64,000 nt of DNA from Amyelois transitella (taxonomy: Eukaryota; Arthropoda; Insecta; Lepidoptera; Pyralidae). Below are positions 939-26,600 of the stretch, one piece after another. The stretch spans positions 558,001-622,000 of the forward strand of contig NC_083529.1 in assembly GCF_032362555.1 (NCBI RefSeq), written 5' to 3'. The first letter of the stretch is position 1, and every line of letters starts with the position of its first letter. The translations under genes were made by a program, and so were the position numbers. Under the pieces are notes generated by a model. It searched no databases, was not told where the DNA came from, and saw only the letters and a program-made list of their open reading frames with translations.

Positions 939-1025
939 CTAGTTGGGCGCCCAGTAGGACTGCGAGTAGGCGGGCTTGCTCGGCGGCGGCTTCGACGACG
1001 ACGAGCGCCCCGCCGCGCCGCTCTC
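939..1025 (-). CDS. lig: lig exon 23: C-terminus and stop
   Basis: Encodes ESGAAGRSSSSKPPPSKPAY and then SQSYWAPN-stop (TAG at 941-939). The Ser/Lys/Pro-rich run ending AYxxSYWxxN is the conserved C-terminal signature of Lingerer/UBAP2L, so the gene is complete in the window. No convincing polyadenylation signal could be fixed downstream because repeats start almost at once. Confidence 0.5.
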   Translation of the reverse strand, partial: ESGAAGRSSSSKPPPSKPAYSQSYWAPN

Positions 1026-2654
1026 CTGCGCGGACACACACACATACAAACACACATTATTTTGATGTGGATAGACGTCGGGGACGCTAGTCTAAAGAGA
1101 GCTTAGGTAGTATGTAGCTTTAAAAAAATACTTATATTTTCACGTCATTTCTTCAAGCTTCAATCTTATAAAGATTGAAACTTGAAAAATGACGTTATTT
1201 TTTTGTTTTTATAAAATATTGATTTTGATTTAATAAACAGGAAAGATTTGTTTATTTGCATGTTAGTAACGAAACAATATGGAACCGAATTTTGTAGAAA
1301 TTTGGCACACAGAATTTCCACGGCAGCGACGCTCGGCAAAAGCTAGTATTTACAGATAAAACTTAAAACTAATTAACTTTAAGGCGATGGGCAAGCAACA
1401 TGTCACTAGCAATCTCAAATCTATTAGCCTGTCACTATTTAAATCTAAATTTTATTATTAAGCCTATACCAGTAATGGTTATTTAATATTATTATTGTAC
1501 GGCATTAGATCATATTTTATATTTAACAAATTTTTTATTTATACATAATTAATATAAAAAATACATATACATAGGTACATGCTAAAGGCGGGTAGTTGTA
1601 CTTTAAATAAATATATAACAATAACTTATAAATCTTATTAAATGTTAATTATAGTGCTAAATTTTATAAGACTCACGTCACACTTCTATTTCAATATTGT
1701 GTAAAACCATAAAAAAAAATATTCTTTTGTCACCCAAATTAATTTAACAACTCGTTCTACATAAAAGACTAAATGTCACTTGGAAAGTTGTAGTCTCAGC
1801 CCACCCCTCCGGAAAAAGGTTATTTTACAAAAAAAAATTACAGCAAAGTGTGACGCAAATTTGTTCCGTGCGCTCAGCTCAATATATAATCTATATATAT
1901 ATATAATATAAATAATGTATGCGTGTATATATTAACTTACCCGCCTATTATGACTACTGTTCACCCGCGCATCCATCTACAAACGAAAGCAAACACTAAA
2001 AAACCTAATAAATTATAACTCCCCCCTTAATAAGCTTAAGTTTCCATACAACGTTACTTCACTTTTTTTTTAAATATGTTCGGGATACATTACACGGATC
2101 GAGTTAGCCTCGAAGTAAGTTCGAGACTTGTGTTACGAGATACTAACTCAACGATGCTATATTTTATAAATTAATAGATATATTAATTTATTGTTCATAA
2201 CATTTAGATGGATAGCAAAAATGAGATTGAAATATGGCGCCAATTTGCTACACATATAAAAGAGTACGAGTCATAATTATTTACCTAATAAATTATCTTT
2301 CATTTAATTAAATGTATTCGATGATTATATGAAAACTTGGGCTTAAAAAGGTCTCCTAAGGTTTAAATTATGTCATGCAATACGGACATTCATTAATCTA
2401 CATAGTGTACATATATAATATATATATAAAGGTTGTTTGGGTGTCTGTATGCCTTCTGACTGAAAAGTTTTAAAGTGATATGTAGTTAAGGTAAATTAAA
2501 ATTTAAAGTAAATTTAAAATTACTTATTTTAAGTATATAGTTTGACATTTCAATATTTATATACTTATGAACGGTGGCGTGAATTCTGTAGTGGCAAATG
2601 AATTCTGAACCTCTTGCACATTTTTATTGTGGACGAAAATATAAAAATTCATGC

Positions 2655-2697
<43 letters not shown>

Positions 2698-5600
2698 AAC
2701 TACACATGCTATTTTCATTCAATATCTAATTATAATATTGAGAGCATTTTAAACAGTATCCAAATTATCTAAGCAAGTTCAACATGTATTTTTATTTTTT
2801 TTTTCATTTTCTAAACTATAATTTCGATATAATTTTTAAGTTCAAGATTTTAAAATTAATATCAGTTGTATATATAATTTGTAGAAAACATTCTTTCTGT
2901 AATATTCATAAATAATACAGGTATTAAACGCGTACGTAACGTACCTACTTTTGTTTTATCTCTGACGTTTCGAATCATGTTACAATTACATCCGTGGTCA
3001 CCGAAAGCACGCTACGTACGCGTTTAATACCCGTATTATTTATAAATATGTAGTATAATGCAACGTGAAAGTTTAAAATCAGTTATTCTTTCCGTACTTT
3101 TTAGATTAACACAAGATTATTTGAAAGTGACATTAATTTGGTGTGTTTCACAGTTATTTATAAAATTAACAAACTTGCTCAGAAAATTTAAAACTTTCTC
3201 AGAAAATTATTGTCTATTGATGAATTCGTGTCGTGTGGTGATGTGCTGTGATGGTTTAGTGTAGTTGTGGCGTTACCTATTATTTGCATTACCTATTATT
3301 TGCATTATCTATTATTTGCATTACCTATTATTTGCATTACCTATTATTTGCATTACCTATTATTTGCATTACCTATTATTTGCATTACCTATTATTTATG
3401 TTACCCCTTACTGAAAGGTGATTCTCAGAAAACTTGTTTAGAACATTGTCTATTGATGCTATGTTGTGGTGTTCAAAGGTGATACTCTCACAAGACTTGG
3501 TCAGTCATGGTGGTGTAGTGTGGTGGTGGTGGTGGTGTAGTGTAGTGTGGTGGTGTGGTGGTGGTGACGCTGACCTGGTGGTGGTGGTGGTGGTGCGGCG
3601 GCGCGGGGATGTAGAGGTGCGAGCCGGCGCCGAAGGGCGGCGGCGTGCCGCTGTGGAACGTCGCCTTCTCGTAACTCTGCCGGGGACAACGGCACATATC
3701 GTTATTTAGCTAAACGTGGGTTGTTTATAGCTAAATGTAGCGTGGAAATAAAAATATAATAATTTTGATAGGTCTGTTTGCTGAAAAATACATACATAAT
3801 ATAGTCACGTCTATATCCCTTGCGGGGTAGACAGAGCCAACAGTTTTGAAAAACTGGATAGGCCGCGTTCAGCTGTTTGGCTTGATAATAGAATTGAGAT
3901 TCAAATAATGACAGGTTGCCAGCCCATCGCCTAAAAGAATCCCAAGTTTATAGGCCTATCCCTAGGTCGCCTTTTACGAAATCCCTAGGAACGAGACGGT
4001 GGTCCTATTCTTTTTTTATGTTGGTGCCGGATACGACACGACGCCATAGTATTTTTATCATGTTATTAACTGATTTATATTAATACCTTTATCTTAATTG
4101 ACGAACCTGTAGCTCGTAGCATTATGTATATATTATACAAGAGGTCGCCCGCAACTTCATCTCAATCATAACGTAACAATCAATAAGTAAAGTAGCCTAC
4201 ATGTTATTCTGGATCTTCAGCTACCTACATACCAAATTTCATCGTAATCGGTTCAGTAGTTTTTGCGTGATAGAGTAACAAACATCCATACTGACAAACT
4301 TTCGCATTTATAATATTAGTCCCTATCATTCATCATCCCGGCCAGGGCATGATGAGGAAAAAACCTTCTCTAATTGCCCCGGGTTTCGGATGTTTATCTA
4401 TATAAGTATTTATTACAAAATATAGTATCGTTGAGTTAGTATCTCGTAACACAAGTCTCGAACTCACTTCGAGGCTAACTCAATCTGTGTTATTTGTCCC
4501 GTATATATTTATTTATAAGTTATTGACCACTCACATTGACCTTGTTGAGAGCGACGTGCGTCTTGTACATGGCGTTGCTGAGCTCTGTGCCCGCCGCCGC
4601 TGTTTTGTTAGAGCCGCCGGTGTAAGGCCCGCCTGGAAACATTATACAATTATTATTTATTATTATTATTGGAAGAGAATTAATAATATGTGATCAATGT
4701 TTAATTTTTACTTGCCAGTACAAGAAAACGCCAGTTTCGCATGTAAGGACCTAATATTTACACAGAATATGTGCTAGCGCAAATGATTTGTGATTTTTTT
4801 TATGAAAGTTCTAGCCCGAAATAATTATTTCGACTGTGTTTTAAAACTTAAATAATATTATAAGTTTTAACACAGTCAAAATAATTAGTTTATATAAAAA
4901 CACTACACATTTTCATTTAATCTATTCCTACACAGAAAATTTGACAAACCATTTGTGAATTTGTAATTCTAGCCAATAATATTATTGTAATGTGATGTGA
5001 AGGAAGATGTAGTAACAGGAATAGATAAGGGTATGTTAAGATGGATTGGTCATATGCAGAGGATGAATGAAAGCAGGTTGACTAAGGACAATACAAGGAG
5101 AGTGTGGAGGGAAAGGTCGGAGTGGGAAGGCCTAGACTAATGTATCTTGATCAAATTAAGGACGTCCTGGTAAAGGGTCAGGTCAAAAGTACCCGAAACC
5201 GCCGAGCTTGTATGAAGAGAGTTATGAATGTGGATGAAGCGAAGGAAGTGTGCAGAGATCGTGGCAAGTGGAAATACGTAGTCTCAGCTTACCGCTCCGG
5301 GAAAAAGGCGTAATTTTATGTATGCATTATTGTGTGAACAAACCATTTCTTTATTTCACTATCTATTATTACGCAGCTGCGGTGTCCCCTGCGCCCGGGA
5401 GCCCTATAAAAGGCCCGGGCCTTCGCCTTTGGAACTACAGGAGACCTAGGGCGCTGGGGGACAGTCACGGTATATACAGGGAGCTGGGCGAGGCGCACTG
5501 ACCCTTGCTGTAGGAGTCCTGGTCGTAGGGCTGCTGCTGCGCGTAGGAGGAGACCTAGGGCGCTGGGGGACAGTCACGGTATATACAGGGAGCTGGGCGA

Positions 5601-8600
5601 GGCGCACTGACCCTTGCTGTAGGAGTCCTGGTCGTAGGGCTGCTGCTGCCGTAGGAGGAGACCTAGGGCGCTGGGGGACAGTCACGGTATATACAGGGAG
5701 CTGGACGAGGCGCACTGACCCTTGCTGTAGGAGTCCTGGTCGTAGGGCTGCTGCTGCCGTAGGAGGAGACCTAGGGCGCTGGGGGACAGTCACGGTATAT
5801 ACAGGGAGCTGGACGAGGCGCACTGACCCTTGCTGTAGGAGTCCTGGTCGTAGGGCTGCTGCTGCCGTAGGAGGAGACCTAGGGCGCTGGGGGACAGTCA
5901 CGGTATATACAGGGAGCTGGACGAGGCGCACTGACCCTTGCTGTAGGAGTCCTGGTCGTAGGGCTGCTGCTGCCGTAGGAGGAGACCTAGGGCGCTGGGG
6001 GACAGTCACGGTATATACAGGGAGCTGGACGAGGCGCACTGACCCTTGCTGTAGGAGTCCTGGTCGTAGGGCTGCTGCTGCGCGTAGGAGGAGACCTTGG
6101 GCGCGGACACGGCGTTCCCCGAGTACGGGTACACGCCGTACTGGTAGGTGCTGGGCGGCGGCTGGTAGAAGTACGCGTAGCCTGGTGGTAGAGCTGCCGG
6201 GACCTGGGGAAATACATATTTATTCATATAAATACATTACACATTCTAAAGTCCAGGAGTTGATAAAAAAATAGCGTTTCGAAGACCGTACATACATACA
6301 TACATATGGTCACGTCTATATCCTGAGTGGTCCTATTCTTTTTTGTATTGGTGCCGGGAGCCACACGGCACTCGCAAGACTGTGGCGAATTATAATCAGT
6401 AGTTCGCAATCGACGTTGTGCAAACTCGTTATAATAAACTTTGGTTTCATCTTGTTGGCTTTAGGACCATTTCATCATCCCATGGATGCCGTGAGCGGGC
6501 GACTTAGGCATAGGTAGGCTTTTATTATTGGGACACCTCTTGTAAGCTACGGGCTAGCAACCTGTCACTATTTGAATCTCAATTCAATTTCAAACAGCCG
6601 AACGTAGCCTATCATTGTTTTCAAGACTGATAGCACACACCACAAGGAACATAGACGTGATTTTATTAAAAGAACGAGAATTCAATAGAGCAATATCAAT
6701 TCTCTATCATCATGACAAACAGCCAAACGTGGCCTATCACAATATTGTAGACGTGTGTGTGTGTTGGTGTGTCCGTGTGTGTGTCTCCGTGTGTGAGTGT
6801 GTCGGCGCCGCACCTGCTGCGGCGAGGCGGCGTCGGCGCGGCCGAAGCGGTCGCCGGCGCCGAGCCCGAAGCCCGCGTCGCGCGCGCCGCCCGGCCCGTA
6901 CCCCACCTCGTAGTACCCGCCCTGGGGAGGGGAAGTACACATTACTTTCATTCCATCGGCAACTTGAAACAGAACATTCGCATCTTTGAATGATTCCTTG
7001 TCGAAATCAAACGATTTTTATTCAATGTTGATGCAAATATTTTCGTATATACGGAAAACATTAATAAAATCACTACATAGTATAAAACAAAGTCGCTATT
7101 TTAGTCCGTTTGTCTGTATGCTTAAATCTTGAAAATTACGCAACGGATTTTGATGCGGTTTTTTGTAACAGGTACAGTGATTTAAGAGGAAGATTTTTAT
7201 GTATAATTTTTTCCGAATTTTGCACCCGTGCGAAGCCGGGGCGGGTCGCTAGTAATAAATAAAATCATTTTAACAATTTATCTTTAATATGTTACACAGA
7301 TATAATAAATAAATAAATATATACGGGACAAATTACACAGATTGAGTTAGCCTCGAAGTAAGTTCGAGACTTGTGTTACGAGATACTAACTCAACGATAT
7401 TATATTTTATAATAAATACTTATATGGATAAAAGACCCAGGCCAATCAGAAAAAGTTCATTTCCCATCATGCCCTGGCCGGGATTCTAACCTGGGACCTC
7501 CAGTGTCACAGACAAGCGTACAACCGCTGCGCCATAGAGGCCGTGTATTCGATGTTGACGCAAATCTTTTCGTATATACGGAAAACATTAATAAAATAAT
7601 AAATAAAATAATTTTAACAATTCATCTTTAATATATTACACAGATATTATTAGCAATTGTGTCTAGAATATAAAGAAACCTGTGATACGAATCACCACAA
7701 TTAATTTATATAACAAACGAATGAATGTAAATATATATATACAGATCAAATTACGCAGATTGAATTCACCTCGAAATAAGTTCGATACTTGTGTTACGAG
7801 TTACAAACACAACGACTACTATATTTTATAACAAATACTTATTATATAGATAAAAATTTATCTAGGAACCAGGCCAATCAGAAAAAGTTAATGTCTCATC
7901 CTGGCCGGAATTCGAATCCGGAATCTCTAGTATCACAGACAAGCGCACTACCGCTACGCCACAGAGACCGTCAATTTGAGCTACTGGTATAAGGTTTATA
8001 GTACCCGGTTGACCGAGCTTTGCTCGGTCTACCAGAGATGGCGCTGATATAATTCCAAAAACGCGATTTTTAAAATGTTTATATATCTTGGAAACCGAGC
8101 TTTGCTCAAACCTAGGATCTTGATAAATCGATTTCTTGAGCCGAAAAGCCCCTAATCTGTAACTTTCATGAAAATCGTTGGAGCCGTTTGCGAGATCCTG
8201 ATTATATATACACAAGAATTGCTCGTTTAAATGAAAATCGTTGGAGCCGTTTCCGAGATCCTGATTATATATACACAAGAATTGCTCGTTTAAATGAAAA
8301 TCGTTGGAGCCGTTTCCGAGATCCTGATTATATATACACAAGAATTGCTCGTTTAAATGAAAATCGTTGGAGCCGTTTCCGAGATCCTGATTATATATAC
8401 ACAAGAATTGCTCGTTTAAATGAAAATCGTTGGAGCCGTTTCCGAGATCCTGATTATATATACACAAGAATTGCTCGTTTAAATGAAAATCGTTGGAGCC
8501 GTTTCCGAGATCCTGATTATATATACACAAGAATTGCTCGTTTAAATGAAAATCGTTGGAGCCGTTTCCGAGATCCTGATTATATATACACAAGAATTGC

Positions 8601-11600
8601 TCGTTTAAATGAAAATCGTTGGAGCCGTTTCCGAGATCCTGATTATATATACACAATTGCTCGTTTAAATGAAAATCGTTGGAGCCGTTTCCGAGATCCT
8701 GATTATATATACACAAGAATTGCTCGTTTAAATGAAAATCGTTGGAGCCGTTTCCGTGATCCTGATTATATATATACAAGAATTGCTTGTTTAAATGAAA
8801 ATCGTTGGAGCCGTTTCCGAGATCCTGATTATATATACACAAGAATTGCTCGTTTAAATGAAAATCGTTGGAGCCGTTTCCGAGATCCTGATTATATATA
8901 CACAAGAATTGCTCGTTTAAATGAAAATCGTTGGAGCCGTTTCCGAGATCCTGATTATATATACACAAGAATTGCTCGTTTAAATGAAAATCGTTGGAGC
9001 CGTTTCCGAGATCCTGATTATATATACACAAGAATTGCTCGTTTAAATGAAAATCGTTGGAGCCGTTTCCGAGATCCTGATTATATATACACAATTGCTC
9101 GTTTAAATGAAAATCGTTGGAGCCGTTTCCGAGATCCTGATTATATATACACAAGAATTGCTCGTTTAAATGAAAATCGTTGGAGCCGTTTCCGTGATCC
9201 TGATTATATATATACAAGAATTGCTTGTTTAAATGAAAATCGTTGGAGCCGTTTCCGAGATCCTGATTATATATATATACAAAAATCGCTCGTTTAAATA
9301 TAGATATGTACATACCATATGATGAGGCAGCGTGTTCCCCCGCGACAGCAGTTGGTCGTCGTAGGGGTAGGCAGCGGTCCCCGCGGCGCCGTAGAGCGCG
9401 GCCGCGTACCCGGCGCTGCCTATCCCCACGCTCGTGGAGCTCGCCGTCGCCGTGTTGTGAGCTGCAATGTATGTATGTATATGGAAATCAATTAAGTGAT
9501 TGACCTTGCAATGTTTGTATCCTGAGAAGTTTTGAAGAAATTTCAACTAAACGGAAATAATATAAATGAATATATTAACTTGAGATTCCACTTGTAGGGG
9601 ATGGGCTAGCAACCTGACACCATTCGAATCTCAATTCAGTATCAAAGCCATAAAGCTTAACGTCGCCATTCAGTGTTTTTTTTAATCTCGTAAGTCGGGC
9701 TTGCACGTATATGAACGCGCGTCGTAACATTATAAAAAATAAATTAATATAAGAAAGCAATTTTTCAAGAGAAGTCAAGTGTTAAACCTATATAGTTCAG
9801 ACTAGCTGTGTCCGCGACTTCGTCCGCGTGGAATAGTTATTTTGGGCATCATTGAAGCCCTCAAGGATGATTAATTTATCCCGTTTTTTTTTCTTTTTTA
9901 AATTATCCATTATTTCTTCGCTACTAAAAGTTGCAGCGTGATATTATATAGCTTAAAGCCTTCCTCGATAAATGGTCTATTCAACGCAAAAATAATTTTT
10001 CAATTCGAACCAGTGGTACCTGAGATTAGCGCGTTCAAACAAACAAATAAACTCTTCAGCTTTATAATATTAGTATAGATTATTGTCAGTTACGGGTTAG
10101 ATTCCCCTGCGAAGGTTTGTAGGAAGTATAGTCGCAAAGTTACGTTATTCACCACGGGAGATGGAAGGAGCTTTATAGTATTGGTATAGATATAAGATAT
10201 ATTATTATCTCACCAGTAGTTGTGGCCACCTTGGCCGTAGAAGTCTGTGTTGTGGATGTGCTCGTTAAACTGTTGCTGGACGCGACCGAACTCGTGTCAT
10301 ACTGTAAACAATTAATTAAATATGTAATCAAATATTGACGATATAATATGATACATATATGATACTGGTATATAATATTCGTATTGAAATCAAATCAAAG
10401 ACGTTCTGGCAAAAGGCAAGCCGAAACGTGTGGAACGATCGAACGATGGATGAAGCGAAGGAAGTATGCAGGAATCGTAGCAAGTGGAAAGATGTAGTCT
10501 CTGCGTGTATGTACGTATGTGTGTATGGATGCATGTGTATATGTATGTACGTGTGTATGTAGGGTGTATGTAGGGTGTATACCTGCGGCTTGTGCGGCGG
10601 CGGCTGGTAGTAGGCGGTGCCGCTGGTGTAGAGCGCGGAGTACGCGCCCGTGTGTATGTACGTGTGTATGTAGGGTGTATGTAGGGTGTATGTAGGGTGT
10701 ATGTAGGGTGTATACCTGCGGCTTGTGCGGCGGCGGCTGGTAGTAGGCGGTGCCGCTGGTGTAGAGCGCGGAGTACGCGCCCGTGTGTATGTACGTGTGT
10801 ATGTACGTGTGTATGTAGGGTGTATGTAGGGTGTATGTAGGGTGTATACCTGCGGCTTGTGCGGCGGCGGCTGGTAGTAGGCGGTGCCGCTGGTGTAGAG
10901 CGCGGAGTACGCGCCCGTGTGTATGTACGTGTGTATGTAGGGTGTATGTAGGGTGTATGTAGGGTGTATGTAGGGTGTATGTAGGGTGTATGTAGGGTGT
11001 ATGTAGGGTGTATACCTGCGGCTTGTGCGGCGGCGGCTGGTAGTAGGCGGTGCCGCTGGTGTAGAGCGCGGAGTACGCGCCCGTGTGTATGTACGTGTGT
11101 ATGTAGGGTGTATGTAGGGTGTATGTAGGGTGTATGTAGGGTGTATACCTGCGGCTTGTGCGGCGGCGGCTGGTAGTAGGCGGTGCCGCTGGTGTAGAGC
11201 GCGGAGTACGCGCCCGTGTGTATGTACGTGTGTATGTAGGGTGTATGTAGGGTGTATGTAGGGTGTATACCTGCGGCTTGTGCGGCGGCGGCTGGTAGTA
11301 GGCGGTGCCGCTGGTGTAGAGCGCGGAGTACGCGCCCGTGTGTATGTACGTGTGTATGTAGGGTGTATGTAGGGTGTATGTAGGGTGTATGTAGGGTGTA
11401 TGTAGGGTGTATACCTGCGGCTTGTGCGGCGGCGGCTGGTAGTAGGCGGTGCCGCTGGTGTAGAGCGCGGAGTACGCGCCCGTGTGTATGTACGTGTGTA
11501 TGTAGGGTGTATGTAGGGTGTATGTAGGGTGTATGTAGGGTGTATACCTGCGGCTTGTGCGGCGGCGGCTGGTAGTAGGCGGTGCCGCTGGTGTAGAGCG

Positions 11601-14600
11601 CGGAGTACGCGCCCGTGTGTATGTACGTGTGTATGTACGTGTGTATGTAGGGTGTATGTAGGGTGTATGTAGGGTGTATACCTGCGGCTTGTGCGGCGGC
11701 GGCTGGTAGTAGGCGGTGCCGCTGGTGTAGAGCGCGGAGTACGCGCCCGTGTGTATGTACGTGTGTATGTAGGGTGTATGTAGGGTGTATGTAGGGTGTA
11801 TGTAGGGTGTATACCTGCGGCTTGTGCGGCGGCGGCTGGTAGTAGGCGGTGCCGCTGGTGTAGAGCGCGGAGTACGCGCCCGTGTGTATGTACGTGTGTA
11901 TGTAGGGTGTATGTAGGGTGTATGTAGGGTGTATGTAGGGTGTATACCTGCGGCTTGTGCGGCGGCGGCTGGTAGTAGGCGGTGCCGCTGGTGTAGAGCG
12001 CGGAGTACGCGCCCGTGTGTATGTACGTGTGTATGTACGTGTGTATGTAGGGTGTATGTAGGGTGTATGTAGGGTGTATACCTGCGGCTTGTGCGGCGGC
12101 GGCTGGTAGTAGGCGGTGCCGCTGGTGTAGAGCGCGGAGTACGCGCCCGTGTGTATGTACGTGTGTATGTACGTGTGTATGTAGGGTGTATGTAGGGTGT
12201 ATGTAGGGTGTATACCTGCGGCTTGTGCGGCGGCGGCTGGTAGTAGGCGGTGCCGCTGGTGTAGAGCGCGGAGTACGCGCCCGTGTGTATGTACGTGTGT
12301 ATGTAGGGTGTATGTAGGGTGTATGTAGGGTGTATGTAGGGTGTATACCTGCGGCTTGTGCGGCGGCGGCTGGTAGTAGGCGGTGCCGCTGGTGTAGAGC
12401 GCGGAGTACGCGCCCGTGTGTATGTACGTGTGTATGTAGGGTGTATGTAGGGTGTATGTAGGGTGTATGTAGGGTGTATACCTGCGGCTTGTGCGGCGGC
12501 GGCTGGTAGTAGGCGGTGCCGCTGGTGTAGAGCGCGGAGTACGCGCCCGTGTGTATGTACGTGTGTATGTACGTGTGTATGTAGGGTGTATGTAGGGTGT
12601 ATGTAGGGTGTATACCTGCGGCTTGTGCGGCGGCGGCTGGTAGTAGGCGGTGCCGCTGGTGTAGAGCGCGGAGTACGCGCCCGTGTGTATGTACGTGTGT
12701 ATGTACGTGTGTATGTAGGGTGTATGTAGGGTGTATGTAGGGTGTATACCTGCGGCTTGTGCGGCGGCGGCTGGTAGTAGGCGGTGCCGCTGGTGTAGAG
12801 CGCGGAGTACGCGCCCGTGTGTATGTACGTGTGTATGTAGGGTGTATGTAGGGTGTATGTAGGGTGTATACCTGCGGCTTGTGCGGCGGCGGCTGGTAGT
12901 AGGCGGTGCCGCTGGTGTAGAGCGCGGAGTACGCGCCCGTGTGTATGTACGTGTGTATGTACGTGTGTATGTAGGGTGTATGTAGGGTGTATGTAGGGTG
13001 TATACCTGCGGCTTGTGCGGCGGCGGCTGGTAGTAGGCGGTGCCGCTGGTGTAGAGCGCGGAGTACGCGCCCGTGTGTATGTACGTGTGTATGTACGTGT
13101 GTATGTAGGGTGTATGTAGGGTGTATGTAGGGTGTATACCTGCGGCTTGTGCGGCGGCGGCTGGTAGTAGGCGGTGCCGCTGGTGTAGAGCGCGGAGTAC
13201 GCGCCCGTGTGTATGTACGTGTGTATGTAGGGTGTATGTAGGGTGTATGTAGGGTGTATGTAGGGTGTATACCTGCGGCTTGTGCGGCGGCGGCTGGTAG
13301 TAGGCGGTGCCGCTGGTGTAGAGCGCGGAGTACGCGCCCGTGTGTATGTACGTGTGTATGTACGTGTGTATGTAGGGTGTATGTAGGGTGTATGTAGGGT
13401 GTATACCTGCGGCTTGTGCGGCGGCGGCTGGTAGTAGGCGGTGCCGCTGGTGTAGAGCGCGGAGTACGCGCCCGTGTGTATGTACGTGTGTATGTAGGGT
13501 GTATGTAGGGTGTATGTAGGGTGTATGTAGGGTGTATACCTGCGGCTTGTGCGGCGGCGGCTGGTAGTAGGCGGTGCCGCTGGTGTAGAGCGCGGAGTAC
13601 GCGCCCGTGTGTATGTACGTGTGTATGTAGGGTGTATGTAGGGTGTATGTAGGGTGTATGTAGGGTGTATACCTGCGGCTTGTGCGGCGGCGGCTGGTAG
13701 TAGGCGGTGCCGCTGGTGTAGAGCGCGGAGTACGCGCCCGCCGCGCTCGCGGCCGCGTTCGTGGTCTGCGCCGCGCACACGCTCGCGCCGGGCTGCACAA
13801 ACACATTCACTTATACCTCGTGGCGACATCTATACGTCGCAACTCACAATAACAAAATCACGCGACGCTATCCGGTCAGAAACAACGAAAAATCTAAATC
13901 GCGCAAGCTAAGATTTCACGGATTGGACCATATATACAACCTCCGACACAACATCGTGTGTTGCGCGGTTCCCCATGCATAACACCAGCCTACGAGAGAT
14001 TGTCCTTTAGTGGTGGGCGAGCCCGAACTATCGCTCCCGCTGCAACCCAGACCAATCGGAAAAAGTCATTTTCAGATTCATGCCCTGGCCGGAATTCGAA
14101 CCCGGGACTCGCGGTGAGGATGCAACCGTGACTAAAGCCAGGAAGATGTGACTCTTAGGAGACAGATAGAGAAACTGATAATACTCGTACTTCTTCCTCC
14201 TGGCTTTAGTCCCGGTTGCATCCTCACCACTCTGGAGAGGAGCCAGGGGTGTGCTTTAAATCATGGATCCTGGATTGGGTGAGTCAGGTTTTTACACGAA
14301 GCGACTCCCGTCTGGCCTTAGCAACCTGTAGGCAACCTTCTTTGTGTACGCCATAGCAAAGGTTACCATGGTTTTGTTTAGCTAGTTAAAAAATGTCAGA
14401 TATAATTTTTACTGTCAAATATTTTTCATTTTATTTCCATAATATAATGTTCAGGCGCGACAGTGTTGACAACTGCACGCACGCAGCGCGTAACAAGTTT
14501 AAGCGTACCGCATTACATTACAACATATTCTTAGTGTTAAAATCTAAAAAATGATTCTTCGACACAGCCCGCCGCGTCATCTCAGTGGATCCCAGCCAAA

Positions 14601-17600
14601 TCTCACGGACCACTCGAATGTGGAACATCAGGTGACTTTTAGGAAGAGGAAGAATCCTCACGATTTTGATGCTGAACATTTTGATCGAAAATTGGATGAG
14701 AAGATCACGGAAATGCGTTCAAATATCATTACAAACATCAATACTTACGGTAATTTAGAGGATTATAGAACTTTCTCCTTACTTTGAAAAAGGCTGTGAA
14801 TACTTGAACATTCTCTAAATTAATTACATTACACTGTGTGAAGATCGTATTAAAATAATCTTTCTTATTTTTGGACGTATGTAAAATCTAAAAAGCAATC
14901 AGGTGACATCCCTAACAGAATGTATGACGTTAATAACGACCCACTCACTACAGGCAAAGAGATTTGTTTTCACCTATTTTCACTCAGTTTTTGTGCATCC
15001 CAGTTCCGTAGGACCACACCTTGATTTATTATTACATGATTGTGATAATTCTACTTCAATATCCATAAATACAATAACTATAGACAAAGATTATATTGCC
15101 TACGAAGTAGAACATATTGATTTGCGTAAAAGTGCGGGCGCAGATGGTATTCCTTCGATTTTTATCCATAGTTGTGCTGATGCTCTAACCTTACCGTTAT
15201 AAATAATTTTCAAAAAATCGATAGATCTGGTGTCTTTCCAAATAAATGGAAAAAAGCACTAGTCACCCCTATACCTAAGAACAATCGACGAGACTTTATT
15301 TCTGAACATAGACCTGTATCTAAACTAAATAAGTTTAGCCAAATCTTTGAAAAAATTGTCACTAGACAGCTATTTGATTCTCTGAAGAACGTATTTCTCC
15401 TAACCAGCATGGATTTTTCAAAAGTAGAAGCGTAGAAACTAATATGGCTACTTTTGTTGATCATCTGTCAAATGCTATTGAAAAAGATATACAGGTAGAT
15501 GTCGTGTACACTGACTTTTCTAAAGCATTTGATAAAATCAGACATAATTTATTAATGTTAAAACTTAAGAAAATCGGTGTGCATAGCAACTTACTCAAGT
15601 GGGTCAACTCTTATATAAGAAATCGAAGTCAGGCTATACCTATACCTATGTGTCAAAGGGTTTTGTTCTGGTTTCTTGCCTATCTCGTCAGGTGTACCAC
15701 AAGGTTCCCACTTAGGTCCGTTACTGTTTACTGTATATGTTAATGATATAGAGGTTTATCTCGGAAATACTAATCAACTATTCTACGCTGGCGATACCAA
15801 AATCTTTCGAGTTGTTGCTAGTGTTGATGATTGTAATAAGATCCAACAAGATTTAGATTCACTGTGCGAGTATTGTGGTCATAATCAGTTATTCCTAAAT
15901 ATCGAAAAGTGCCGGGTGATAACATATACTTGTAAAAAGAATTGTATTAAATATAATTATAATCTTAATCATACTCCGTTGACTAGGGTTGACTCACTTC
16001 GAGATTTAGGTATCATGATAGACAGTAAACTAAGCTTTAAAAATCACATTATCCGCAGAGCTTTCAAAAATCTCGGCTTCATTAATAGAATCTCCAAGCC
16101 CTTTAAAAATCATGACACTATCAAGATCCTCTATTTCAGTTTTGTAAGAACCATTTTGGACTTTTGCAGTAGCATCTGGAATACCAATTATCAGGTTGAT
16201 GTGGATGCTGTTGAGAGAGTACAAAAGAGATTTTTAAAGATTCATAACTTTAGAACATGCTTAATAAACACCTCTTACAATGATTCCCTTGTTCACCATA
16301 AGCTTCTTTTCCTAGAAGATCGTCGAACTCAATTCGACATAACATTTTTGTACAAAATTCTTAACAGTTTCGTGGGTTCTCCTACTCTCTTGTCAAAGAT
16401 TAACTTCATTAGTAAAGCTCGTCTTCCGGTTGGTAACACTCGTCATCTAAACATATTTGTGCCACTTCGCCTTCTCAAGAACTACACTCGAATAAATATC
16501 TTCTACCGCAGTTTGAAACGCTATAACAAGGACTGACATTGACCTATTCTCGCAATCACTGCAGACTCTAAAAAGGAAATTATTCCTATCACTTTTCAAC
16601 AGCATCGTAAAATAATTAAATAAAAGCTCCTTTAATTTATACGTGTAAACTATTTATGTTATGTATTACGTTAACCAGTTACTTATATGTATATCTATTT
16701 TGTCAATTGTTATATTGTCAACACTAGCATAATTTATATGTTTTTTGTTAAATTTTTCGGCGCTATTTGCCTATTTAATATTTAATTCCTAGTGTAAAAA
16801 TAAATAATTTTAAATTTGATTATTTCTCTCCTCTTTTCTCCTTCCATCTCCCGTAGTGGATAACGTAACTTTGCGACTATGCTTCCTACAAACCTTCGCA
16901 GGGGAACCTAACCCGTAACTGACAATAATCTATACTAATATTATAAAGCTGAAGAGTTTATTTGCTTGTTTGAACGCGCTAATCTCAGGAACTACTGGTT
17001 CGAATTGAAAAATTCTTTTGGAGTTGAATAGACCATTTTTCGAGGAAGGCTTTAGGCTATATAACATCACGCTGCAACTATAAGGATCGAAGATATAATT
17101 GAAAATGCGAAAAAAAAACGGGTAAAATTATTCATCCTTGAGGGCTTCAATGATGCCCAAAATAACTATTCCACGCGGACGAAGTCGCGGGCACATCTAG
17201 TTAGTTACCTGATAAGAGTTAATCATCGGCTGGTACTGCGTGAGGGTGACGCTGGACGGATATGTGCTCATCGCGGACGCGGCAGTCAGCGAGGGGTTTG
17301 TGGAGTTCACCTGTAACAGACAGACATACATACACATTGTATGTATATATAGGTATACTCTTATGTAGATTTTACGTTCTGTTCTTCAAAATCGCAATTG
17401 ACTAAGTAAATTTGTTTTTATAAATAAAGTTATTTTAAAAAAAATGCCGTACCGTGCCGTGTGGTTCCCGGCACCAATAAAAAAAAAGGAATAGGACTAC
17501 TCCATCTCTTTCTTAGTGAATGTCGAAAAAGGCGACTAAGGGATGGGCTTGTAAACTCGAAATTCTTCTTTTAGGCGATGCGGCTAGCAACCTGTCACTA

Positions 17601-20600
17601 ATTGAATATCAATTCCATCATGAATCTAGATAGGTGAACGTGGCCTCTTTCAGTCTTTTGATGACTATTGCCTCTGCCTATCCCGCAATAGATATACACG
17701 TGACTATATGTATGTACTTGAGGCCGCCCGCGACTTCGTCCGCGTGGAATCATTGCCGCAGGGACTCCGGGATAAAAAGTAGCCTATATATTATTCTGGA
17801 TCTTCAACTACTACCAAATTTCATCGTAATCGGTTCAGTAGTTTTTGCGTGAAAGAGTAACAAACATTCATGCGGCTGACACACTCACAAACTTTCGCAT
17901 TTATAATATTAGTATAGAAAAAATTCCAATTGTGCCGTGTGGCTCCCGGCACCAATATAAAAAAGAATAGGCCCACTCCATCTCTTTCCCACGTTTATCG
18001 TAAAGGGCGACTAAGGGATAGGCTTACAAACTTGGGATTCTTTTTTAGGCGATGGGCTAACAACCTGTCACTATTTGAATATCAATTCTATCTTAAAGCC
18101 AAATAGCTAAAAGTAGCCTATCAGTCTTTTCAAGACAGTTGGCTCTGTCTACCCCGCAAGGGATATAGACGTGACCATATGTATGTATAGGAAAAATTCC
18201 AACTCACTTGTGGTGCATAAACATTGGTCCCGTACACCGGCGGCAGGTGAGCGTGGTGCGGCGTGTACACGTTCTGCTGCTGCTGTTGTTGCGGCTGTTG
18301 TTGTTGTTGCTGTGCCTGCTGTTGTTGTTGTTGTTGTTGTGGCGGCTGCGGCTGCGCGGGCGGCTGCAGCGGCGCGGGCTGCGCGGGCGGCGGCTGCTGC
18401 GGCGCGACCGCCGGCTGGAACCATCATTGTACAGTTGAACAAATATTGTTTATTATTGCCACGTCTGTATCCCTTGCTGGGTAGGCAGAGGCGACTGTTT
18501 AAAGACTGAAAGGCCACGTTGTACGGCTTTAGAATGGTAATGAGTTTTATATTGGAATTCGCTTTAAAACCATGAATTATTTTGGATATATCCAAGCTAA
18601 TATTATAAATGAGACAATAAGTTTGTTTTGTTATTTTCTGTTATTGGAAAAAGTTAACATACTGTACCGACCCTGCGGCTTTCGTACGGGTGTTTAATTC
18701 GTCGCTTTTTATAGATAGTCGCATTTGATTAGCTGACTTTTGTAGATTGTACTAAAATCTTCTTTTTCTTTTCGATGGCATTAAATTATTCGCTTTTTGT
18801 AGATGGCGCTTAATTCACACGTGCAAAGTTGCCGGTACAAGCTAGTCTATAAGCGCGTTCAAACAAACAAACTCTTCAGCTTTATAATATTAGTATTTAT
18901 ATATACAGGGTGACTTTTAATTCAACTGCATAAATTTAACTGTTAAGTGTATTCATCTAAAGGATATTTGAAAACGTTAAAAGAAAAATATCGGTTCACA
19001 TTTCAGAAAGTACGAAAAAAATAAAAGTATTAAAATCCACGATCCTAAATACGTCATATCACCCCGGCCGGCGGAAAAGTGACGCGTAAGATCCAGAGGT
19101 CAACGACACAATTCATTCAGCTGAGCGATCTCGACAACTGTACTTTACTGGATCTTGATACTAGAGAAATAATTTTTCAAATTATTCAGACATTTATTTA
19201 CATGGTTAGTTTTAATTTCTTTTTGTAGTATTGGTCTTTAATAAAGCGTGTGACGTAGTTTTTGAGGGTTTTAAATGTGAAAATGATGACGTTTAATTTA
19301 AATAAAAATAGGCTCAAACGGCTCAGAAGCATGGGTATAGTCTATGTTTAAAAGGATGCAGTTGTTTTAAATGTCACCCTGTATATATATATATATACGA
19401 CAGTAACCTTGGCGCGGCCGGGCTTGCCGTGCGGCGCGGGCGGCGCGTCGGCGGCGGACACGCTCAGCTGCTTCATGCACGCCGACAGCTGCTTCTCTAG
19501 CGCTGGAACAACATGCACATTTCATTGAATACTTGATGGCCTCTGTGGCGCAGCGGTAATACGCTTGTCTGTAACACCGGGGGTCCCGGGTTCGAATCCC
19601 GGCCAGGGCGTGATGAGAAAAGAACTTTTTCTGATTGGCCTGGGTCTTGGACGTTTATCCATATAAGTATTTATTATTATTACAAAATATAGTATCGTTG
19701 AGTTAGTATCTCGTAACACAAGTCTCGAACTTACTTCGAGGCTAACTCAATCTGTGTAACTTGTCCCGTATATATTTATTTATTTATTGAATACTTGAAC
19801 AATAATATCAAATTTCAATGTTCAGAAGAGAGAGTCAGTGGTCTAATCGGTAAGGTGCCCGGTTAAAATGCGTGTGGCGCGGAATGGCACAGGTTCGAAT
19901 CCCACCACGGCCAATGACTATTACCGAAGTTCTTTATAAATAGATTTAGAATTAGAACATCTTTATAGTAGGTTTGGAATGAACAAAGAGAAAAAAAAAG
20001 TAACCTTTTGAATGAGAAATTTAAAAAAAGAAAAAGTTAATACATACATATAATCACATCTATATCCCTTGCGGGGTAGACAGAGCCAACAGTCTTGTAA
20101 AGACTGATAGGTCACGTTCAGCTATATTTGGCTTTAAGATAGAATTGAAATTCAAATAGTGACAAGTTGCTAGCCCATCGCCTAAATAAGAATCCCAAGT
20201 TTGTAAGCCTATCCCTTAGTCGCCTTTTACGACATCCATGGGAAAGAGATGGAGTGGTCCTATTCTTTTTTGTATTGGTGTCGGGAACCACACGCAAAAA
20301 GTCAATGCATTCTTTATTTATGTACGACAAATTTGCATTCATTCAACCATTTAATTGAATGAACTATACAAACAGCCGGTCTATTTAGCACGATTTTTAC
20401 TCGAATACAACGTGATAATGTCGTTTCGTTCTAGCATCGTGCGGTTTGTAATTATATTGTTACCAACTTATATTGTTACTGTTGTTTTATTATAATTAAT
20501 AATATCTGAATTATCATGCAGTAAATTGAAGATTAGCATGGTAATATATATGTACAAAACTCTGAAAATTCTAATATCGCGATTTAGAATCAGTTCGTCT

Positions 20601-23600
20601 ATTAGCTAAGGCGTGGCGTGGTGCCTATGAAAATGGCAAATAACTTCTACTTTCTATATAAAATATAAACACTAAACTCATTGACCAGATATTTGCACAC
20701 ATACATATATTATATAATCACGTCTCCATCCTTTGCCGGGTGACACAGCCAACACTCTTGCTAATATGATCAGTCTTCAAAATTCTTGCTGGCTCTGTCT
20801 ACCCCGCAAGGTATATTATAGACGTATGGATAGATTATTTGTATATATATATGTATATAAAGACTCTGAATGTGGATGAAGCGAAGGAAGTATGCCAGAG
20901 ATCGTGGCAAGTGAGAAGATGTAGTCTCTGCGTACCCCTCCGGGAAAGAGGCGTGATTTTATGTATGTACTAGCGACCCGCCCTGGCTTCGCACGGGTGC
21001 AAAATTATAAATGTTATTATACATAAAAACCTTCCTCTTGAATCACTCTACCTGTTACAAAAGACCGCATCAAAATCCGTTATCCATCAAATTTTAAAGA
21101 TTTAAGCATACAGCCAAACAGACTAAAATAGCGACTTTGTTTTATACTATGTAGTGATGTATGTATGTATATATGTAGACTCACTGGTGGTGTTGTTGGT
21201 GACCGGCTGCTCGGCGGAGTTGGTGGCGGCGCCGTCCGCCGCCGGCAGCGGGGAACTCAACTGCGGGACGAAACAACAATAGAATAGAATATAATTATTT
21301 TTAAAATTGGATAAAAGGTATCACTTATTGACGTCACATCACTTAAATCTTTAATATGAGCCGTGTGGTTCCCGGCACCAATACAAAAAAGAACAAGACC
21401 ACTCCCATCTCTTTCCCATGGATGTCGTAAAAGGCGATTAAGGGATAGGCTTACAAACTTGGGATTCTTTTTTGGGCGACGGGCTAGCAACCTGTCACTA
21501 TTTGAATCTCAATTTTATCATTAGGCCAAATTTCATTCAGTTCAACGTTTAGCTGATCGTGGCCATTCAGTCTTTTCAATACTGTTGGCTCTGTCTCTGT
21601 AATGTTATTGTAAATAGTAATTTGGGTTCTTATGTAAGTGACAACTTGTCTTAATGAGAATAAATGTCTTTAAACCTAAACCTATCTGTCTACCCCGCAA
21701 GGGATATAGACGTGACCATATGTATGTATGTGTGTTATATATAAACAACTGAAATAATAGTAGGGCAGCCCACGAGGCTTAATTGGAATTTACGCGAGCG
21801 TCATAGAGACCTATGGAGTTGCGAAGGTTAGATGATGAGAAGAAAAAAAACGTACCATTTTATCGGTGGGGGGAGCGGCTATAGATTATCAAAAATGTAA
21901 ATAAAAACACTTCCACGGAAAACATAGTCCAGAATGAATAGACACTGCGATCCAACCCGGCTGCCCAGCGTGGTCGACTGTGGGTAAAATCCCCCCATTT
22001 CTGGGGAGGCTTTAGCCCAGCAGTGGACTTTTAGAAGCTGTTAAGGTAACACCGTGTGGCTGTGGGCGGGGTGGGCGTCCTCCTCGCCGGCGGGCGGTCT
22101 CACCGTGTGGCTGTGGGCGGGGTGGGCGTCCTCCTCGCCGGCGGGCGGTCTCACCGTGTGGCTGTGGGCGGGGTGGGCGTCCTCCTCGCCGGCGGGCGGT
22201 CTCACCGTGTGGCTGTGGGCGGGGTGGGCGTCCTCCTCGCCGGCGGGCGGTCTCACCGTGTGGCTGTGGGCGGGGTGGGCGTCCTCCTCGCCGGCGGGCG
22301 GTCTCACCGTGTGGCTGTGGGCGGGGTGGGCGTCCTCCTCGCCGGCGGGCGGTCTCACCGTGTGGCTGTGGGCGGGGTGGGCGTCCTCCTCGCCGGCGGG
22401 CGGTCTCACCGTGTGGCTGTGGGCGGGGTGGGCGTCCTCCTCGCCGGCGGGCGGTCTCACCGTGTGGCTGTGGGCGGGGTGGGCGTCCTCCTCGCCGGCG
22501 GGCGGTCTCACCGTGTGGCTGTGGGCGGGGTGGGCGTCCTCCTCGCCGGCGGGCGGTCTCACCGTGTGGCTGTGGGCGGGGTGGGCGTCCTCCTCGCCGG
22601 CGGGCGGTCTCACCGTGTGGCTGTGGGCGGGGTGGGCGTCCTCCTCGTGCGGCTGGCCGGCGTCCAGCGTGTCGGGCGAGAGAGCCCCGAACTGCACGTC
22701 CAGGAACATGGCCGACGAGGACTCCCCGCCGCCGGGCATCTCCACCGCCGACGACGGGATCTGAAACGGGAACACATCAATCAATCAATCGATCGTTGCG
22801 AAAAAATTACACAAATCCTATAGATCTCCGTATATTCCTAGGTTTTGATATTGTTCAGACTATTGTCTTGTATCTTAAGTAACGTAACATTTTTACTGTC
22901 TGTGTGTGTGTGTGTGTGTGTGTCTGTCTGTACAGTACCTTGCTGGGCGGCGGCAGGCGCGCCCGCTGCTTCCTGCCGTCGTGGTAGGCGGGGTAGTGGT
23001 ACGTGTGTACTGTTGCCGTGGTGTCTGTGTGTGTGTGTGTGTCTGTCTGTACAGTACCTTGCTGGGCGGCGGCAGGCGCGCCCGCTGCTTCCTGCCGTCG
23101 TGGTAGGCGGGGTAGTGGTACGTGTGTACTGTTGCCGTGGTGTCTGTGTGTGTGTGTGTGTCTGTCTGTACAGTACCTTGCTGGGCGGCGGCAGGCGCGC
23201 CCGCTGCTTCCTGCCGTCGTGGTAGGCGGGGTAGTGGTACGTGTGTACTGTTGCCGTGGTGTCTGTGTGTGTGTGTGTGTCTGTCTGTACAGTACCTTGC
23301 TGGGCGGCGGCAGGCGCGCCCGCTGCTTCCTGCCGTCGTGGTAGGCGGGGTAGTGGTACGTGTGTACTGTTGCCGTGGTGTCTGTGTGTGTGTGTGTGTC
23401 TGTCTGTACAGTACCTTGCTGGGCGGCGGCAGGCGCGCCCGCTGCTTCCTGCCGTCGTGGTAGGCGGGGTAGTGGTACGTGTGTACTGTTGCCGTGGTGT
23501 CTGTGTGTGTGTGTGTGTCTGTCTGTACAGTACCTTGCTGGGCGGCGGCAGGCGCGCCCGCTGCTTCCTGCCGTCGTGGTAGGCGGGGTAGTGGTACGTG

Positions 23601-26600
23601 TGTACTGTTGCCGTGGTGTCTGTGTGTGTGTGTGTGTCTGTCTGTACAGTACCTTGCTGGGCGGCGGCAGGCGCGCCCGCTGCTTCCTGCCGTCGTGGTA
23701 GGCGGGGTAGTGGTACGTGTGTACTGTTGCCGTGGTGTCTGTGTGTGTGTGTGTGTCTGTCTGTACAGTACCTTGCTGGGCGGCGGCAGGCGCGCCCGCT
23801 GCTTCCTGCCGTCGTGGTAGGCGGGGTAGTGGTACGTGTGTACTGTTGCCGTGGTGTCTGTGTGTGTGTGTGTGTCTGTCTGTACAGTACCTTGCTGGGC
23901 GGCGGCAGGCGCGCCCGCTGCTTCCTGCCGTCGTGGTAGGCGGGGTAGTGGTACGTGTGTACTGTTGCCGTGGTGTCTGTGTGTGTGTGTGTGTCTGTCT
24001 GTACAGTACCTTGCTGGGCGGCGGCAGGCGCGCCCGCTGCTTCCTGCCGTCGTGGTAGGCGGGGTAGTGGTACGTGTGTACTGTTGCCGTGGTGTCTGTG
24101 TGTGTGTGTGTGTCTGTCTGTACAGTACCTTGCTGGGCGGCGGCAGGCGCGCCCGCTGCTTCCTGCCGTCGTGGTAGGCGGGGTAGTGGTACGTGTGTAC
24201 TGTTGCCGTGGTGTCTGTGTGTGTGTGTGTGTCTGTCTGTACAGTACCTTGCTGGGCGGCGGCAGGCGCGCCCGCTGCTTCCTGCCGTCGTGGTAGGCGG
24301 GGTAGTGGTACGTGTGTACTGTTGCCGTGGTGTCTGTGTGTGTGTGTGTGTCTGTCTGTACAGTACCTTGCTGGGCGGCGGCAGGCGCGCCCGCTGCTTC
24401 CTGCCGTCGTGGTAGGCGGGGTAGTGGTACGTGTGTACTGTTGCCGTGGTGTCTGTGTGTGTGTGTGTGTCTGTCTGTACAGTACCTTGCTGGGCGGCGG
24501 CAGGCGCGCCCGCTGCTTCCTGCCGTCGTGGTAGGCGGGGTAGTGGTACGTGTGCTCGTGCCGCTGCGCCGCGGCCGTCAGCGACGACAGGTACTGCGAC
24601 TGGGCCGCCGACAGGCTGCCCGACATTCCCATTGGCTGTAACAACGAGATTGTTATGTGATTTAAAAAACTCTTATCAACATATTGCATTGTCATCGGTC
24701 CTTGATACGTGTGAAAAGTTCCAAGTTGATCAGACGTTTAGAAACCAGTGAAAATTAAGCTCAAAGATTCCGATACATACATACATACTTACATACATAC
24801 ATACAACCCAAGCTAATAAAAGCGTAGTAAAAAAGAAATACGAACGAATTTAGCACAAAAAGACTGGAATGTCATGCGCATTCCAATGTTTCCAATAGGC
24901 GATAGTTGTTGGCTCTGTCTACCCTGTGAGAGATGTGATATCTATCCCAACACCACTCATGGTTCTACCAATCTTCCGGTGATCATTGCCGAATCATGTT
25001 CGGAGTGCGTAGTTTGTTACCGCTTCTTCTGCACTGACGGCTTGGAAGCGGCAATAAACTTAAGTTTAAGTAATTTATTTGACGTCAACCAATGTTGTGA
25101 AACCAAAAGATTTGACTATTATTAAGCGATATGAAGTGTCCTATAATAATGAATAAAAAATGTTGGCATTTTGAATCATAAATAGCAGATATACAAGAAG
25201 AGGGTGGAAAGGTCGAAGTGGGAAGACCTAGACGAACGTATCTTGATCAAATTAAGGACGTCCTGGTAAAGGGTCAGGTCAAAAGTACCCGAAACCGCCG
25301 AGCTTGCATGAAGAGAGTTATCAATGTGGATGAAGCGAAGGAAGTTATGCAGAGATCGTGGCAAGTGGAAAGAGGTAGTCTCTGCTTACCCCTCCGGGAA
25401 AGAGGCGTGATTTTATGTATTTATGTATGTATGTATAATAATGTGACATAATCACCTGGTGATGGTGAGCGTGGAAGGTGTCCTCCTTGGCGGAGGCCGC
25501 GGGCTGCGTGGCGGACGCCACGGCCGCTACAGCCGCCGCCGTGTGGTTATTTGCAGAGTTTATTTGCTGTAAGGAAATATTTATCGTTATTTTTATACAC
25601 AATTACAAAAACAAAAATTTGATATATAAGAGCGTCATTACATACATAGTGACGTGTGGTTCCTGGCACCAATACAATAATAATAGGACCACTCCATCTA
25701 TTTCACATAGATGTCGTAAAAGGCGACCAAGAGATAGGCTTATAAACTTGGGATTCTTTTTTTAGGCGATGTGCTAGAATCCTGTCACTATTTGAATCTC
25801 AATTCTTTTATTAAATCGCACAGCTGAACGTAGCCTATCAGTCTTTTTAAGACTGTTTGCTCTGTCTACCCCGCAAGGGATATAGACGTGACTATATGTA
25901 CGTATGTATTACATTCAAACATATACACATATAATTACGTCTATATCCACTAGGGGTAGACACACCCAACAGTCTTGTCAAGACTGAAATGCCACGTCAT
26001 TTGTTCCTAGAAATTCATTCATTCATATAATCACGCCTATATATATATTGTGGGGTAGACAAACTCAACTCTCTTGTCAAGACTGAAAGGCGACATTCAG
26101 CAGCTTTATAACAGAATTGAGATTCAAATAGTGACAAATACCTATAAAAATAAATCAAAAACTCACGTCAATAATAGTATGGTGAGCGTTGTGGTATGTG
26201 TACGTGGGTATGTGGTCCGCAGTAGGGCCGTTGGCGGGCGGCGAGTCCCAGTCTTCCTGTAATGGGTAACAAATGACCGAGGTCAGAACCACACCTGGAT
26301 TGACTTCACTGGTGTCACACACCAATTGTCAATGACAGCGAAGGGAATGACGCGCTCAACCAAAAGCAGCGGAGAGTCTAAATCGCGATTACAAAGATTT
26401 CACGGATTGGAGCATATATCTTCTCTTTGTGGCGGTCGAGCCCCAATCATCGCTCCCGCTACAGACTCACTGATCCATTGTCCATGATATTATCCCTATA
26501 ATTTATAACAATGCCATCTCAACTAATATTATTATCGTGAAAGTAAGTTTCTTTGTTATTACTTCACAGTAAAACTGTTGTAGTGATTTTCATTAAATTT

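Follow-up and report, generated by a model that had tools for sequence, protein, structure and literature searches.

Minisatellites spanning 5' splice sites at four exons of lig and exon junctions of other genes in the moth Amyelois transitella

The stretch of DNA analyzed here, referred to as the window, comprises 64 kb of the genome of the moth Amyelois transitella (C25:558001-622000; the assembly counts 327 Mb in 33 contigs) and carries the lig (lingerer) gene, in which four exons end in tandem arrays of their own 5' splice site (Table 1). The product of the spliced lig model contains a UBAP2-Lig domain (Pfam PF12478, E 7.4e-12), its stop codon lies within the last exon, and it is 98% identical to the annotated A. 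transitella protein lingerer isoform X2 (P0001, 887 aa). The two proteins differ where exon 21 ends, by two residues, and in an extra 12-residue exon, which precedes the last exon in isoform X2 and is left out of our 23-exon model. The exon numbers 10, 11, 16, and 20, under which the initial annotation had listed the arrays, agree with this model.

In each of the four arrays, the unit is composed of the 3' end of the exon, the 5' splice site (donor), and the start of the intron. Both the copy numbers given in the initial annotation (14, 12, 24, and 6 at exons 10, 11, 16, and 20) and the total of 56 donors were borne out by Tandem Repeats Finder (TRF) and by a donor count, for which the minus strand was split at a fixed word. 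From first to last donor, the arrays span 1,547, 561, 3,090, and 541 bp, respectively. They start 52-113 bp from the acceptor of their exon and end 142-807 bp before the next acceptor; the earlier statement that no array covers the acceptor of its own exon thus holds for all four. Read in the coding frame, the exon 11 unit has no stop and encodes 17 aa, and the last donor of this array reads GTGTTA. The exon 16 units measure 122-166 bp, mostly 133 or 134 bp, with an 11-bp sub-repeat in the intron part that varies in number. At exon 20, copies 2 to 5 have lost one base, and a base is changed in the last two copies.

Table 1. The lig gene and its donor-spanning arrays in the window (a slash marks the splice position within a donor)
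Feature	Position	Strand	Description
lig (lingerer) gene	900..32525	(-)	spliced open frame of 873 aa, 23 coding exons modelled
Exon 10 to first donor	24486..24635	(-)	AAG/GTACTG
Exon 10 array	22902..24554	(-)	TRF 119 bp x 13.9; 14 donors; last donor after 22939
Exon 11 to first donor	22614..22760	(-)	ACG/GTGAGA
Exon 11 array	22050..22647	(-)	TRF 51 bp x 11.7; 12 donors; last donor after 22053
Exon 16 to first donor	13673..13792	(-)	CAG/GTATAC
Exon 16 array	10542..13740	(-)	TRF 133 bp x 23.8; 24 donors; last donor after 10583
Exon 20 to first donor	6044..6203	(-)	AGG/GTCAGT
Exon 20 array	5439..6104	(-)	TRF 108 bp x 6.1; 6 donors; last donor after 5503

The copies within each lig array are nearly identical. 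The nine donor bases agree among all counted copies except the last exon 11 copy (1 of 12), although this agreement is partly built in, as the copies were located by words that hold part of the donor. Over the exon stretches compared (62, 33, 66, and 38 nt), the copies of an array do not differ at all, which suits a young age, and the exon 10 and exon 11 arrays are almost invariant between copies. The lig arrays are young or freshly homogenized. Their 6-24 copies, periods of 51-133 bp, and 92-100% matches rule out a chance origin.

The arrays are minisatellites, with near-identical units that follow each other head to tail and measure tens to hundreds of base pairs, and they are candidate variable number tandem repeats (VNTRs). 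They are at the same time boundary repeats, since they overlap the exon-intron boundary at four exons, and these boundaries agree with isoform X2. Tandemly duplicated alternative exons are ruled out for lig because all four arrays start inside the exon, downstream of its acceptor. Nor do the arrays represent intron gain by tandem duplication: none reaches the acceptor of its exon, and isoform X2 holds no array-derived exon. At some unit junctions AG words occur, so that use of a cryptic acceptor is possible. The units had been described as unrelated to each other, which stands for five of the six pairs but not for the pair of exons 10 and 16, whose score of 43 exceeds the maximum of 30 in 100 shuffles; we read this likeness as a common CA-rich and CCG-rich composition. 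The conclusion that the arrays arose in four separate events, all of them spanning a donor, is supported.

Other repeats are also found in the lig introns. A fifth array (63 bp x 18, 8168-9299, minus strand) lies in intron 18, where it starts 17 bp past the donor of exon 18 (exon end 9316); it does not cover that donor and is related to the donor arrays by position only. At the same exon, the predicted lig protein of Cydia fagiglandana implies a donor-spanning array. Repeats of CA or CAC type lie in the 100 bp downstream of the donors of exons 4, 19, and 22 (29491-29590, 6714-6813, and 3475-3574), and AT repeats follow those of exons 13 and 18. Among the acceptors, 1 of 22 (exon 23) has such repeats nearby.

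When the first donor is used at all four arrays, the 873-aa frame of lig stays open throughout. At all four array junctions, the residues of isoform X2 are those of the first donor; none of the array repeats is present in this isoform, and the product is unchanged. Donors 1-5 and the last donor of each array were also tried in frame. The second donor keeps the frame at exon 11 only; with it, translation would end prematurely at the three other exons (10, 16, and 20), and at exon 20 all of donors 2-6 lead to an early stop. Splicing in the animal presumably proceeds from the first donor. The units of exons 10 and 16 are open in all three frames, those of exons 11 and 20 and of the PBK array described below are not. 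As a sign of selection, open unit frames are unconvincing: when the letters of the units are shuffled, between 0.75% and 82% of the resulting sequences are open.

Donor arrays are not unique to lig. In 25 random stretches of 10 kb (250 kb, drawn at random places of contigs of fully or partly known length), two arrays meet cut-offs that were set after arrays had been seen (TRF period of at least 20, at least 3 copies, and at least 90% matches), and both lie at exon junctions. The first (L018) follows an exon of the PBK/TOPK kinase and presents 17 donors at 66-bp spacing; the joined PBK exons match the PBK structure 5j0a (E 1.9e-56) through residue 272 of 274, which is the end of the array exon. 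The second (L017 7372-7897, contig C20; 165 bp x 3.2) spans an acceptor and precedes an exon whose frame follows on from that of an evident exon upstream. It belongs to a gene with a Myb-like domain (30.5 bits, just below the 31-bit cut-off), which we take to be cramped. Since this array spans the acceptor, the functional acceptor would have to come from its last copy. Besides these two arrays, less clean repeats occur in L017, L027, and L050 of the same 250 kb.

The whole genome was furthermore scanned for three donor motifs (GGTRAGT) in regular succession. At 50-80 bp spacing, 214 matches were obtained versus 69 for the mirrored motif; at 80-110 bp spacing, for which places only were recorded, there were 514 versus 69. 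These figures are matches, many of which fall in one array, and the set at 80-110 bp includes arrays already seen and a probable repeat family. Single motifs are similarly common in both orientations (50 versus 47 mirrored in 250 kb). At least 11 donor-motif arrays are listed at 50-80 bp, those up to contig C20, and in 10 of the 11 the first donor ends a coding-looking exon; the exception is the C11 array (30-bp unit), whose first donor has no such exon. The boundaries of the scanned exons were judged by reading frame, lig being the one gene compared with a public protein of the species. Among the 10 exon peptides, two lie above the Pfam cut-off (Peptidase_M1, 4.7e-16; Radial_spoke_3, 9.1e-7), four lie below it (Hobbit, 6e-6; INTS7_HB, 8e-4; C1_1, 0.004; DUF4774, 0.009), and four have no Pfam match. 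In the 13 arrays, of 15, for which it was measured, the unit contains 2-69 nt of exon (ungapped); the C4 array has a unit made up almost entirely of intron, 2 bp being exonic. In the C8, C7a, and C7b arrays, a later copy has lost its donor, the first copy being intact, in keeping with a relaxed constraint on the copies after the first. Junction minisatellites are thus present in several genes of this genome, and probably in many more.

Two arrays from the scans are notable for their units. At C7:11537147-11537618, 57-bp units carry CCCTCTAG and CACG/GTGAGT flanking a short exon-like piece, a unit type that could start new introns. The unit of a 62-bp array at C4:6674260-6674455 seems, by its letters, to hold a coding end with the stop codon.

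The initial annotation had placed all arrays on the donor side and had proposed a genome scan for donor-spanning versus acceptor-spanning repeats. A pattern scan of this kind was run for both sides, the acceptor pattern being six pyrimidines, any base, and CAG; it matches 2 of the 22 lig acceptors, just as the donor word matches 2 of the 22 lig donors. For the acceptor pattern, 393 matches versus 131 mirrored were found at 50-80 bp and 569 versus 199 at 80-110 bp. On contigs C1-C14, the 50-80 bp scan gave seven donor-pattern arrays, six of them with a coding-looking exon, whereas the acceptor pattern gave one likely acceptor-spanning array (C3:10551572) and one ambiguous array (C4:2077337, with an open unit of 26 aa), as sorted by the printed letters alone. 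After CAG, the C3 array reads IWMLTGDK, presumably a motif of P4-ATPases. The remaining acceptor-pattern rows of these contigs are transposable element-like, coding on the opposite strand, stop-spanning, simple repeats, unplaced, or single matches. At 80-110 bp, from C1 to C9 near 6.64 Mb, seven new donor-pattern loci stand against five regular acceptor-pattern arrays (at least 3 matches each, unsorted); the acceptor count leaves out simple repeats, and the donor count leaves out the arrays of the 50-80 bp scan. Two of the seven donor loci (C5:1619930 and C9:6638685) have 87-89 bp spacing, also appear in the acceptor list, and are probably a repeat family. The acceptor-pattern array at C5:2641476-2642797 adjoins an acceptor-like row before GC-rich, coding-like sequence. 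The evidence therefore leans toward donors over acceptors only at the shorter periods. The claim that the arrays lie on the donor side applies to lig, where it holds for four of four, a 1-in-16 event under even chance; as a rule for the genome it fails on the acceptor-spanning array of L017 and the second likely one on C3. Arrays occur on both sides of exons.

Similar arrays are implied by the lig proteins of other moths. These comparisons rest on gene models, that is, predicted proteins. Of 509 protein matches in a lig search, 120 were listed, among which 16 rows from 14 species bear names that we take to be those of Lepidoptera. Four of the 120 listed proteins contain in-frame repeats of at least 25 aa, namely those of three moths (P0005, P0007, and P0013) and of another insect, Lamprigera yunnana (P0113); this test misses frame-shifted repeats such as those of Loxostege. 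In the lig models of Loxostege sticticalis, exon 11 is read in three successive frames. One DNA string can encode both the first and the second reading, as was the case for none of 2000 shuffles of the second, and the stretch between the readings is compatible in two frames with GTACTT and on, a donor with the start of the intron. The first copy of P0003, with its methionine, is incompatible with the third reading, but the leucine variant of P0006 fits it (0 of 2000 shuffles). In the lig protein of Cydia fagiglandana, five in-frame copies of the end of exon 18 are joined by VCTVQGGEV, readable as GTATGT and on, and exons 6-7 are repeated in shifted frames (one of the two offsets tried fits, without a shuffle control). 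Exons 6-7 are also repeated in Leguminivora, and exon 15 is repeated in Cydia amplana, perhaps as whole exons. These predicted proteins imply that donor arrays recur at other exons of lig in other moths.

Taken as a whole, the arrays no longer read as peculiar to lig but as a class of young minisatellites at junctions, of which lig is a striking case. In the account that we favor, and hold to be moderately probable, young minisatellites are seeded at exon/intron junctions and are tolerated, since splicing from the first donor removes everything downstream of it as intron. A small segment spanning the donor would be duplicated in tandem and would then grow by slippage or unequal exchange, with the first copy staying the real exon end and the later copies being removed with the intron. 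The first donor would define the exon because it is nearest to the acceptor of the exon and is transcribed first. The array would be near neutral, its sole effect being a longer intron (541 to 3,090 bp are added in lig), so that nothing opposes array growth; this near-neutrality, like the mode of growth, is presumed. Such events would hit many genes of this genome, and the many small exons of lig would account for its four arrays. This splicing filter explains the survival of donor-spanning arrays.

Several points weigh against this account. The filter explains neither the density of arrays at junctions nor the acceptor-spanning arrays, whose existence means that the harmlessness of a first donor is not the whole story. 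In the window, chosen for its arrays, and the 250 kb of random sequence together, six of seven arrays lie at junctions (at the TRF cut-offs given above), which is more than a filter on uniform mutation gives, so that a junction bias is needed that the account leaves unexplained. In earlier work on duplicated 5' splice sites, the downstream copy was reportedly often preferred. Moreover, later donors do not always truncate the lig product. Of the later donors tried at exon 10, donor 4 gives a full-length product and the others (2, 3, 5, and the last) lead to an early stop; at exon 16, donors 2-5 lead to an early stop, and the last donor gives a full-length product. The exon 11 frame is kept by each of the six donors tried (of 12), which give a full-length product that grows by 17 aa per unit.

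These full-length products bear on the idea that downstream donors are used and that the arrays are coding VNTRs, which add repeats and thereby vary the length of the protein. The 51-bp unit of exon 11 suits this idea, as do the five in-frame copies of the exon 18 end in the predicted protein of Cydia fagiglandana. On the other hand, most later donors tried at exons 10 and 16 and all of those at exon 20 lead to early stops, isoform X2 is free of the repeats, and the proteins of the other moths are gene models. We therefore consider variation in protein length improbable as the explanation of the arrays.

A mutation bias toward junctions, whatever its cause, is likely. The initial annotation had proposed a local mechanism that favors duplication at junctions, with a GC-rich exon and R-loops as ingredients. 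Its core gains from the random sample, in which both qualifying arrays lie at junctions, but its ingredients do not fare well. A GC-rich exon is rejected as a requirement, since the PBK unit has 38% GC and the scanned units range from 31% to 77% (C4 31%, C20c 32%, and C8 36%); with such low-GC units, exon GC alone is no explanation of junction arrays. The GC skew on the coding strand is negative (-0.20 to -0.49) in all five of the four lig units and the PBK unit. This C-rich coding strand is the opposite of what favors R-loops and makes an R-loop seed less likely. Across the ten scanned units, five skews are negative and five positive, so that strand skew explains nothing either way there, and the R-loop seed is weakened.

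Instead of ordinary minisatellite birth, a mutation mechanism linked to transcription or RNA might be aimed at the junction itself. The two random-sample arrays and the low-GC units speak for it, whereas the unbiased sample consists of two arrays only and the mechanism has no strand signature (negative skew in 5 of 5, then in 5 of 10) and no established edge signature; we thus regard it with considerable doubt. A broader proposition, that moth genomes hold hundreds of exon-junction minisatellites made by a mechanism aimed at splice junctions, with the donor-side ones kept or favored as identical donors are read as one, is tentative and, on the present evidence, rather unlikely. If true, nature would thereby provide a series of genes in which a single exon carries between 3 and 24 identical 5' splice sites.

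Multiple donors might also be selected, because many 5' splice sites could aid exon recognition or shield the pre-mRNA from early cleavage via U1. The donors are identical in all counted copies of exons 10, 16, and 20, similar arrays occur in other genes, and they recur in the lig of other moths according to predicted proteins. The donors of the lig arrays are not strong (GTACTG, GTGAGA, GTATAC, and GTCAGT), however, and broken donors occur in later copies of other arrays; the identity of the copies is explained by youth, because the exon parts are identical too. The initial annotation had left the choice between tolerated and selected donor multiplicity open, and the intact first-donor frame together with the loss of donors from later copies in C8, C7a, and C7b supports the former; selection seems to us quite unlikely. 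That the arrays were over-expanded in the assembly or library, as the near invariance of the exon 10 and exon 11 copies, judged from the assembly alone, might suggest, is very improbable, since copy-specific variants are orderly (the sub-repeat numbers at exon 16 and the variants at exon 20 and in PBK), an artefact would not respect the coding-looking exon ends at which arrays start in many genes, the predicted proteins of other species imply similar arrays, and arrays of 0.6-3.2 kb are short for the long reads that the small number of contigs suggests were used.

Relatives of these arrays have been described. In human segmental-duplication genes, tandem repeats overlap exon-intron boundaries and can alter gene structure, and 27 intron modifications were accepted upon manual inspection (De Grassi and Ciccarelli 2009, PMC2812944). 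Like those repeats, the lig arrays overlap the exon-intron boundary. As far as the consulted parts of that paper go, recent paralogues were compared and novel introns result, often with alternative transcripts, whereas here the arrays have 3-24 copies and sit on donors, the genes were not chosen for duplication, and the annotated lig isoform X2 is unchanged. In potato, an intron of an RdRp gene was gained by a tandem duplication across a splice-site boundary (PMC4974935). There, too, the duplication crosses the boundary and carries splicing signals along, according to the sections of the paper considered here; in our case there are many copies, the boundary is that of the donor, and a new intron is not part of the finding. 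In the light of the boundary repeats in human genes (PMC2812944) and the boundary-crossing duplication in potato (PMC4974935), at least as these sources present them in part, the initial remark that no description of such a set was known is too strong.

With minisatellites and VNTRs in general, the arrays share head-to-tail units of 30-165 bp, near-identical copies, and changes in sub-repeat number. What sets them apart from ordinary minisatellites is a unit with an exon end and a donor, and a first copy that belongs to a coding exon. A paper by Zhuo and others (PNAS, 2007) reportedly deals, by its title, with new alternatively spliced human introns from tandem arrays, and would share with the present case that such arrays supply splice sites. 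The literature searched, outside of which lie most subscription papers, yielded general work on intron gain besides the papers named here, but no description of donor-centered arrays as a group of their own or of more than one within a gene.

Which of several equal 5' splice sites a cell uses, be it the first, nearest, or strongest one, is a question usually addressed with constructed minigenes. With 14, 12, 24, and 6 near-identical donors at four exons, lig is a natural test of splice-site choice, and long cDNA reads could settle which of the identical donors is chosen in the animal, in lig as well as in the other genes. Junction arrays would also show a cheap route of intron lengthening. Finally, gene models of such exons, for example in the lig of Cydia and Loxostege, may include junk repeats.

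Two observations concern repeats of other kinds. At C15:3085936-3163673, a run of partial RRM matches with an internal stop, mostly about 4.4 kb apart, forms a large tandem array that carries part of a gene. Within the window, a long open stretch among repeats at 44149-46148 appears transposase-like by eye.

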